From NCBI GenBank assembly GCA_029227055.1, contig JAQXZE010000004.1, forward strand, positions 1 to 60,906: 60,906 nucleotides of DNA, read 5' to 3'. This document shows positions 2,680-60,906 of the stretch, in pieces. The notes beneath the pieces are model-generated. The model was not told the DNA's origin and ran no database searches. It saw only the letters and a list, made by a program, of their open reading frames with translations. The number at the start of each line of letters is the position of its first letter. Positions within the stretch are counted from its first letter, which is position 1. The position numbers and the translations under genes are program-made. The stretch comes from Oscillospiraceae bacterium. Its GTDB lineage: Bacteria > Bacillota > Clostridia > Oscillospirales > Acutalibacteraceae.

Positions 2680-2819
2680 GAAGAACAAAAATTGAGGGTT
2701 TGCAAATATGTAGGGTTGATTCACGAATCAACCACATTTTCGGGCAATTCGTGAATTGCCCCTACTTTTAGAAAATTAATATAGTGCAAACAAACCCTCG
2801 AAAAACTGTTTTGTTCTTC
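2680..2819 (-). terminator. abrB-side terminator-like inverted repeat, split by a REPIN
   Basis: GAAGAACAAAA...GAGGGTTTGCA (2680-2704) is complementary to TGCAAACAAACCCTC...TTTTGTTCTTC (2785-2819). Read leftward it lies after abrB and is followed by a TCTTTTTT run, so it looks like a terminator. The apical loop holds the palindromic element at 2710-2765. Confidence 0.55.
2710..2765. repeat. REPIN-like paired palindrome, copy A
   Basis: GTAGGG plus a palindrome with 9-bp arms (GGTTGATTC, AC, GAATCAACC) is followed by a short ACATTTTC spacer and a second, inverted unit with arms GGGCAATTC/GAATTGCCC ending in CCCTAC. Related pairs occur at 15163, 46923 and, degenerate, at 60541. A single unit lies inside the transposase gene at 60788. 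Confidence 0.85.
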
Positions 2820-15162: not shown

Positions 15163-15219
15163 GTAGGGTTGATTCACGAATCAACCGCATTTTTCGGGCG
15201 ATTCGTGAATCGCCCCTAC
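15163..15219. repeat. REPIN-like paired palindrome, copy B
   Basis: Left unit GTAGGG with arms GGTTGATTC/GAATCAACC, spacer GCATTTTTC, then inverted unit with arms GGGCGATTC/GAATCGCCC ending CCCTAC. It fills the gap between a terminator and the TIGR02206-like gene. Confidence 0.85.
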
Positions 15220-45856: not shown

Positions 45857-46923
45857 TGGAAATGAATATTGCGTTACTAAAGGGTGACGGTATAGGCCCT
45901 GAAATAGTAGACAGTGCCGTTTGTGTTTTAGAAAAAATAGGGGAGAAGTTCGGTCATAAATTTAATTTTACACCGTATCTTATAGGCGGCTGTGCAATTG
46001 ACGCTGTGGGCGAGCCGCTACCTAAAGAGACTGTTGAGGGTTGCCTTGCCGCTGATAGCGTATTGCTCGGCGCAGTAGGCGGACCCAAGTGGGATACCCT
46101 TCCCGGAAATATGCGTCCCGAAAAGGCACTGCTCGGTATAAGAGCTGCTATGGAGCTTTATACAAATCTTCGCCCTGCAAAGCTTTATCCCGCTTTAAAG
46201 GACGACTGTCCGCTTCGTGCTGATATAGCAAAGGACGGATTTGATATTTTAATCGTCCGCGAGCTTACAGGCGGTATCTACTTTGGAGACAGAGGCTACC
46301 GCGAGGGTAAGTACGGTGAGGAAGCTTATGATACAGAGTGCTACAGCCGTTTTGAAATTGAGCGTATAGCAAGAGCTGCCTTTGAAGCGGCAAAGCTTCG
46401 TCGATGCAATGTAATCAGTATTGATAAGGCTAATGTGCTTGAGTCTTCAAGACTATGGCGCAAAACAGTACACGAAATCGCAGAGGAATATCCTGAGGTT
46501 ACCTGTACTGATATGCTTGTTGATAATGCAGCAATGCAGCTTGTTAAAAATCCCTCTCAGTTTGATGTTATTGTAACCTCAAATATGTTTGGTGATATTT
46601 TGTCCGATGAGGCATCCCAGATTACAGGCTCTATAGGAATGTTGGCGTCCTCCTCGCTAGGTGACACAAAGAGAGGTCTTTATGAGCCGATTCACGGCTC
46701 TGCCCCCGATATTGCAGGTCAGAACAAGGCAAACCCGATTGCTACAATTCTTTCTGCTGCTATGATGCTTCGCTACGCCTTTTCTCTTGAAGCAGAGGCT
46801 AAGTGCATTGAGGACGCAGTAGATGCAGTTTTAGAGGCAGGAATCCGTACTGCCGATATAGCAAAAGATGGTAAGTCTATAGGCACTAAGGAAATGACCG
46901 CAGAAATTTTAAAGAGAATATAG
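45856..46923 (+). CDS. leuB: 3-isopropylmalate dehydrogenase
   Basis: The 355-aa NAD-dependent decarboxylating dehydrogenase completes leucine synthesis to 2-oxoisocaproate. [15 protein letters not shown] near 7-21, [15 protein letters not shown] near 135, and [25 protein letters not shown] near 239 are present. It is the last gene of the T-box operon. The stop TAG shares its last base with a REPIN (46923-46987), so the element abuts the coding end exactly. Confidence 0.97.
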
Positions 46924-46987
46924 TAGGGTCGATTCACGAATCGACCGCAATCTGTGTATATACGGGCAATTCGTGAATTGCCCCTAC
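46923..46987. repeat. REPIN-like paired palindrome, copy C
   Basis: Left unit GTAGGG with arms GGTCGATTC/GAATCGACC and inverted right unit with arms GGGCAATTC/GAATTGCCC ending CCCTAC. The spacer GCAATCTGTGTATATAC differs from copies A and B. It begins at the last base of the leuB stop. Confidence 0.85.
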
Positions 46988-60510: not shown

Positions 60511-60597
60511 TGTAGGGCAAATCGTGATATGGTTTTGTTCGTAGGGGGATTCCTGAATTGCCCGAAAAATGCGGTTGGTCCATAAATCAACCCCACA
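60511..60597. repeat. degenerate REPIN-like element, copy D
   Basis: GTAGGGCAAATCGTGATA at 60511 is followed by GTAGGGGGATTCCTGAATTGCCC, the spacer GAAAAATGCGG and TTGGTCCATAAATCAACCCCAC. It has the order of copies A and B in reverse orientation, with several arm mismatches. It lies just upstream of the transposase gene. Confidence 0.65.
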
Positions 60598-60667: not shown

Positions 60668-60906
60668 ATGAAAATGGAATTACTCAAACGAAAGTCCACA
60701 AGGCTCAAAAATTATGATTACAGTAGCGAGGGCGCATATTTTATAACAATATGTTCGCATAACCGCAAAAGGTTATTTTCAGATATTGTAGGGGCGATTC
60801 ACGAATCGCCCGAAAGCAAATTAAATTCAAACGGAATAATTGTTGATGATTATATTAAAAAATTAAATGTTCGTTTCGGTTTAAATGTTGATAAATATGT
60901 AATAAT
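60668..60906 (+). CDS. REP-associated tyrosine transposase (RAYT), N-terminal part, cut by window end
   Basis: An open frame from ATG 60668 (or ATG 60674) runs off the window after 79 codons. MELLKRKSTRLKNYDYSSEGAYFITICSHNRKRLFSDIV matches the start of the Y1_Tnp/REP-associated transposases of the IS200/IS605-like single-strand transposase group, which act on REP/REPIN palindromes. The HUH motif and catalytic Tyr would lie beyond the window. Codons 41-49 (VGAIHESPE) are encoded by a GTAGGG-type palindrome at 60788-60815, the same unit as the nearby REPINs. No frameshift is seen in the visible part. Confidence 0.88.
   Translation, partial: MKMELLKRKSTRLKNYDYSSEGAYFITICSHNRKRLFSDIVGAIHESPESKLNSNGIIVDDYIKKLNVRFGLNVDKYVI
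60788..60815. repeat. REP unit embedded in frame in the RAYT gene
   Basis: GTAGGG with arms GGGCGATTC/GAATCGCCC and the trailing GAAA equals one half of REPIN copy B. It keeps the transposase reading frame open. Confidence 0.88.

Follow-up and report, generated by a model that had tools for sequence, protein, structure and literature searches.

The window, i.e. the whole stretch of 60,906 nucleotides that was analysed, comprises the full contig C4 (60906 bases) of an Oscillospiraceae assembly (G000; 1.5 Mb, 70 contigs). At its 3' end lies the 5' part (79 codons) of a gene for a REP-associated tyrosine transposase (RAYT/TnpAREP) at 60668..60906 (+), which is truncated by the end of the contig, short of the HUH motif. 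The surrounding ORF extends without a stop from 60629 through the last base of the contig and has ATG codons at 60668 and 60674. Within this frame, at 60788-60811 (+), an embedded REP was located, GTAGGGGCGATTCACGAATCGCCC, which consists of a GTAG foot and a perfect 9-bp stem with a 2-nt loop (GGGCGATTC/AC/GAATCGCCC) and is translated as V-G-A-I-H-E-S-P (VGAIHESP). The initial annotation of this DNA, made from the sequence alone, had read the locus as a RAYT gene carrying an in-frame REP; the perfect hairpin in the open frame, together with the full-length homologues described below, bears this out. An artefact of the contig end as the source of the embedded REP was ruled out, because homologues in other assemblies carry the REP as well.

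Dispersed REPINs were present in the window at 2710..2765 (+ REP 2710-2733, inverted REP 2742-2765), 15163..15219 (+ REP 15163-15186, inverted REP 15196-15219) and 46923..46987 (+ REP 46923-46946, inverted REP 46964-46987), respectively. At each of these, two perfect REPs face each other, the partners being slightly different, and the inverted REP at 15196-15219 has the same 24 nt as the RAYT-embedded one. Perfect hairpins of a GTAG foot and a 9-bp stem were counted 7 times in the window versus a mean of 0.0 in 100 first-order Markov simulations, which rules out a chance palindrome. The pattern GTAGGGN{8,16}GCCCGN gave 19 matches in the assembly and 0 in the reversed control; one of the matches (L020) has no hairpin. 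Apart from that one and the RAYT copy, none of the other matches in the assembly overlapped an ATG-started ORF of at least 100 aa (0/17). A degenerate REPIN lies 5' of the RAYT gene at 60541..60596 (left REP 60541-60564, right inverted REP 60573-60596); its left half matches the pattern and the pair as a whole has decayed.

Identity of the window gene

The 79-aa piece alone matched no transposase model in Pfam and nothing in NCBIfam; the RAYT identity of the window gene was taken from its full-length homologues. Homologues of the window protein were detected in 53 of the 149 genomes searched, its own genome included. Scanning the contigs of GTDB turned up 29 loci, partly the same genes, three of them from Oscillospiraceae MAGs at 72-80% identity; the plasmid and phage collections yielded 4 records and 1 record, respectively, all at <60% identity. 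Four full-length products scored 67.1-74.2 bits on NCBIfam NF047646 (REP_Tyr_transpos), in each case the best family, with all four below its curated cut-off of 80 bits, and the Pfam Y1_Tnp cut-off was passed by 4/4. M-P-x-H-x-H and the C-terminal Tyr column (Y151) were invariant in 19/19 aligned homologues. By the E. coli numbering, Y151 is presumably the catalytic Tyr. The frameshift or loss of HUH and Tyr residues against which the initial annotation had cautioned was thus not found in the orthologues, on which the check was done since the window gene ends 5' of HUH.

The product of L061 (GenBank SVPF01000011; 167 aa) was modelled by AlphaFold2 with a pLDDT of 85, and the best PDB fold match of the model was 4er8, the REP-bound E. 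coli RAYT. According to this model, the orthologues have a Y1-transposase fold that is closest to the REP-bound E. coli RAYT. The match to 4er8 came from the fold search; a PDB sequence search returned three chance-level ribosomal-protein matches and no RAYT. When the C-terminal half of an orthologue was used as the query, the second half of the window gene was not found in its own assembly, a result of little weight. IS200-like transposase remnants were met at C25:35044-35378 (frame interrupted) and C45:4-66 of the same assembly; these other Y1 transposases of the assembly were set aside, as they look IS200-like and are broken or partial.

Two REP sites inside the gene

Two sets of related genes were collected. 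The first, 83 distinct genes out of loci L032-L149, was retrieved with the protein that holds VGAIHESP, by which REP-bearing genes were possibly favoured. The second, class-wide set was retrieved with a mixed profile; 50 of 291 genomes matched profile A1, and the 50 loci examined (30 given, 20 fetched) contributed 47 further genes. GTAGGG-footed REPs occupied both sites in 61 of the 83 genes; 22 genes were left out of this count, 7 because one site lacked the GTAGGG foot and 15 because a site was absent or of insufficient length. By the strict stem score, 57 of the 83 genes passed at site 1 (26 failed), 69 passed at site 2 and 51 at both. Of the 47 genes of the second set, 31 had site 1, 41 had site 2 and 29 had both, so that 90 of the 130 pooled genes carry GTAGGG-footed REPs at two sites.

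Site 1 begins at about nt 105-156, on the coding strand, before the first long helix. Site 2 is inverted and lies between the HUH motif and helix alphaC, with its foot on the non-coding strand. The two feet face outward, as in a REPIN, with the HUH-coding segment in between, and the site positions give a spacer of roughly 105-190 nt. REPs of differing length sit at the same two sites. In the L061 model, site 1 is predicted to be a beta-hairpin turn (residues 40-47), in accordance with the loop position that had been anticipated for the insert, and site 2 (approximately residues 92-99, counted on the sequence) would run into the long helix 98-122. Most homologues of other phyla have a plain turn at site 1, e.g. 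VNGEMVLNEYG, and several other-phylum homologues have a REP solely after HUH. An in-frame REP in the RAYT gene is general in this clostridial clade of gut bacteria and no one-off. The embedded copy singled out as unusual in the initial annotation is real; its rarity did not stand, as it is common in the clade and is accompanied by a second, inverted copy after HUH in full-length orthologues. The window REP is best explained as one half of such an inverted embedded pair, of which site 1 alone is visible in the window gene.

Concerted turnover of the pair

REPs differ widely from gene to gene, and the two within one gene match. In the first set, 15.95 of the 18 nt after GTAGGG agreed between site 1 and site 2, versus 7.4 when permuted (maximum 9.15 in 10,000 permutations); genes and genomes share ancestry, and the permutation values therefore overstate independence. 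With one gene per REP cluster (17 clusters), the agreement was 15.1 versus 6.8, and the gene's own site 2 was strictly the best match to site 1 in 13/17 clusters. The second set replicated the result (15.6 versus 7.7 shuffled; 15.1 versus 7.0 for 13 clusters). The lowest within-gene matches of the first set were 5, 5, 9, 12 and 12.

Site-1 REPs of the first set fell into 21 types among 65 genes. A quick tree was built from 81 genes after masking of the REP residues, 27 of its 78 inner branches being weak. On it, the 21 types over 63 labelled rows required 24 changes, versus a minimum of 20 and a shuffled mean of 48.3. The pair thus turns over in concert within RAYT lineages, and the data suggest that enzyme and target change together. 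Nearest neighbours shared the REP type in 36/59 cases for the middle segment, 38/59 for the C-terminal part and 23/59 for the N-terminal part; this sharing does not support a cassette-like exchange of the segment between the REPs, and the comparison with L034 was ambiguous. One exception was L043 (G066:C116), in which site 1 and site 2 are of different types and a third embedded REP follows further on; it may be a mosaic or a type switch in progress.

Covariation with helix alphaC

For this comparison, alphaC was defined as running from site 2 up to the following WQ or FQ. After controlling for the other segments, REP similarity covaried with alphaC similarity at a partial r of 0.448 (60 genes) and, in the replicate, 0.531 (28 genes). 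The corresponding values were 0.04 and 0.13 for the N-terminus, -0.04 and -0.08 for the C-terminus, and 0.17 and 0.19, weak yet significant, for the middle segment between the REPs. Helix alpha3 of the E. coli RAYT touches the REP via K82, according to the available text of PMC8266576. Since both helices are placed between HUH and WQ, alphaC probably corresponds to alpha3.

Constraint at the DNA level

Where residues were the same, codons inside the REPs were identical in 225/225, 607/636 and 314/324 cases, versus fractions of 0.53-0.56 elsewhere, a comparison that is partly circular because the gene groups were picked by REP similarity. It was therefore repeated without such a choice, with gene pairs binned by protein identity outside the REPs. 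At 70-80% identity (39 pairs), codon identity outside the REPs was 0.59 and on average 31.9 of 36 REP bases matched, 28 pairs matching at least 32/36. At 60-70% identity (215 pairs), at least 32/36 REP bases matched in 46 pairs, 20 or fewer in 91, and 78 were intermediate. The embedded pair is preserved as DNA, its codons being conserved beyond the residues that they encode. A neutral scar, which the initial annotation had offered as one reading, is disfavoured, because the REP codons have stayed almost constant against a background of divergence in the remainder of the gene.

Stem complementarity was counted in 44 distinct 26-nt REPs: pairs 3-5 were complementary in 44/44 (16-19 expected from shuffles), pair 6 in 43, pair 7 in 27 and pair 9 in 26. 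This complementarity is partly built in, because the REPs counted had been preselected for a stem of at least 7 pairs with at most 1 mismatch.

Dispersed copies across genomes

Three REP families were searched in 149 genomes, allowing at most 2 mismatches. At least 3 dispersed copies were found in 3/6, 7/11 and 6/8 genomes with the embedded type and in 8/143, 4/138 and 8/141 genomes without it, respectively, genomes whose sole gene is truncated or broken (G037 and G069, for example) being scored as without. The repeats thus follow the gene, as had been expected in the initial annotation, and they are not equally abundant in genomes that lack it; yet copies also occur in certain genomes in which no gene was detected (family 1: at least 1 copy in 19/143, at least 5 copies in 5). 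The dispersed GTAG REPs are presumably cognate to the RAYT. In G101, 25 family-1 REP copies were found and the window protein had no match; a different RAYT may drive the copies there. Since G011 and G067 (family 1) and G028 (family 2) hold a perfect or near-perfect embedded pair and zero dispersed copies of its type, the embedded pair is not always a member of a repeat family. The dispersed variant GTAGGGTCGATTCACGAATCGACC was also present at site 2 of L033.

Flanking REPs and deletion products

The available text of PMC2817692 states that a RAYT gene invariably stands between two inverted REPs. Flanks of up to 500 nt were searched for REPs of the gene's own type only, with at most 5 mismatches in 24. 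Same-type REPs on both sides were found in 1/58 genes of the first set (upstream 2, downstream 5) and 1/28 of the replicate (upstream 5, downstream 1). In effect, the REP pair has shifted from the flanks into the gene.

In L109 (G037:C16) and L139 (G007:C25), the N-part up to site 1 is followed by one double-foot REP and then by the C-part in another frame, resuming just after site 2, with the junctions judged by alignment to relatives. Both look like deletions that joined site 1 to site 2 with loss of the HUH segment. Among the five remnants with an N-part and then a C-part, a full double-foot REP was present in these 2 and a partial REP in 1 (L207); L200 has no REP at the junction though its breaks are near the sites, and L147 is broken elsewhere. 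In L145 (G027:C26) and L149 (G071:C7), the N-part is followed by a double-foot REP (GTAG-hairpin-CTAC) and the C-part was unmatched. A central deletion between inverted REPs has been suggested as the origin of double-foot REPs (PMC6006769, in the text available). Because each REP is itself palindromic, a site-joining deletion could also occur via short homology without the enzyme.

Stacked REP-derived stretches were observed at site 1 of L107 (G045:C56; VGQGLARS...VGDDAHIVP) and L103 (G079:C60; VGARVSGG...VGEGLCALP), as though a new REP had come to lie next to an old one. L210 (G155:C53:14400-16137, truncated at a contig edge) holds a RAYT ORF at 1031-1738 whose site 1 consists of roughly nine REP-derived units of 42 nt (14 aa each), in tandem and in frame, and like REPs form an array upstream of the gene. 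Its genome, G155, gave 11 profile matches and 49 candidates and has numerous RAYT fragments as well as fusions and REP arrays; the system there is possibly active.

Discussion

Embedding as such is already known, because in-frame REPs were reported for tnpAREP genes of subclass 2.4, generally inserted between HUH and Tyr (Quentin et al. 2018, PMC6006769, in the text available). The genes described here share with that subclass the in-frame REPs, the canonical long REPs and the REP between HUH and Tyr, which corresponds to site 2 and was seen in all 90 genes with two sites. A stem base of three G-C pairs is a further criterion of the subclass; in the 44 distinct REPs of 26 nt, G-C was invariable at pairs 1 and 2, and pair 3 was A-T or T-A in 17. 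Whereas the insertions of subclass 2.4 are described as additional to flanking REPs, here there are two fixed sites of opposite orientation, of which one precedes HUH, most genes lack flanking REPs of their own type, and the pair turns over in concert, following alphaC. In the E. coli RAYT/TnpAREP (4er8) and REPtrons the pair stands around the gene, whereas here it stands inside. Two inverted REPs with outward feet also make up REPIN/BIME elements, but here what separates them is coding sequence that includes the HUH motif. Palindromes read in frame are also known from intragenic REPs and Rickettsia palindromic elements (Di Nocera et al. 2013, PMC3733652, in the text available); those occur in many unrelated genes, whereas 17/17 other copies in G000 lie outside ORFs of at least 100 aa. 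The available texts of PMC6006769, PMC3733652, PMC2817692, PMC12306157 and PMC8266576 describe neither a fixed inverted pair, its concerted turnover and a link to alphaC nor in-gene site-joining deletions. What seems to be new here is how the embedded REPs are organised, as a fixed inverted pair with concerted turnover, a link to alphaC and deletion products.

Our preferred reading, to which we give about an even chance, is that the embedded pair is a cis-acting target of its own enzyme. The RAYT genes of the clade would hold the inverted cognate REP pair within the reading frame instead of on the flanks, and the RAYT would recognise its own gene as single-stranded DNA, the substrate being inherited together with the enzyme. 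When the REP family changes in a RAYT lineage, both embedded copies and alphaC would change along, and an occasional joining of the two REPs would excise the HUH segment. Selection would then be the cause of the conserved codons, and a regulatory effect on the gene is conceivable. A serious, if less probable, alternative is that the RAYT or recombination repeatedly recopies REPs of the current family into the REPs in two permissive loops, where they are tolerated; the within-gene match would then be a by-product that needs no function. The codon data alone fail to separate this recopying from a cis-acting target, because recopied REPs give equal codon identity. Both sites are predicted loops in the model, insertions in flexible loops may be harmless (PMC6006769, in the text available), the stacks of L103 and L107 and the tandem units of L210 suggest copying into site 1, and the occurrence of GTAGGGTCGATTCACGAATCGACC in L033 is in line with it too. 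However, tolerated self-insertion would have to strike one and the same pair of sites, with opposite orientations, in 90/130 genes, and G011, G067 and G028 keep their pairs without dispersed source copies. The loss of those copies may be recent; such genomes, though few, tilt the balance toward the cis-acting target.

Two readings that dispense with a DNA target fare worse. That the stems act in the RAYT mRNA, on translation attenuation or stability, with DNA recognition irrelevant, is improbable: the outer stem pairs stay complementary despite sequence variation and palindromes fold on either strand, yet a stem requires neither a GTAGGG foot at both sites, nor identity with a dispersed family, nor a link to alphaC, and the foot of site 2 is on the non-coding strand. 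Still less credence is given to the encoded peptides (VGAIHESP, RAIRESPL etc.) as specificity loops of the protein. Site 2 is directly 5' of helix alphaC, and peptide and REP are coupled by construction, but the codons are conserved beyond the residues, REPs of unequal length share the sites, and the model for subclass 2.4 in the available text of PMC6006769 places its variable region, the insertion, away from the DNA.

If the cis-acting target is carried further, the locus can be read as a REPtron turned inside out, in which the in-frame cognate pair and alphaC would switch family jointly and pair-joining would cut out the catalytic segment, the gene silencing itself; this full scheme is tentative and, on balance, rather doubtful. 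If true, such a gene would be enzyme, seed and substrate of its own repeat family. Because each gene displays its presumed target in its own sequence, enzyme-target pairs and the matching helix can be read from genomes alone, which bears on how RAYTs and their REPs remain matched. The recognition code thereby becomes testable via alphaC swaps between types, e.g. GTAGGGGCGATTC and GTAGGGGACGATG, and the natural deletion products can be sought by PCR.

A further variant of gene structure was observed at L076:2983-3945, where the RAYT frame continues into a second domain (321 aa in total). The extra domain looks like an endonuclease of the YraN type (UPF0102).
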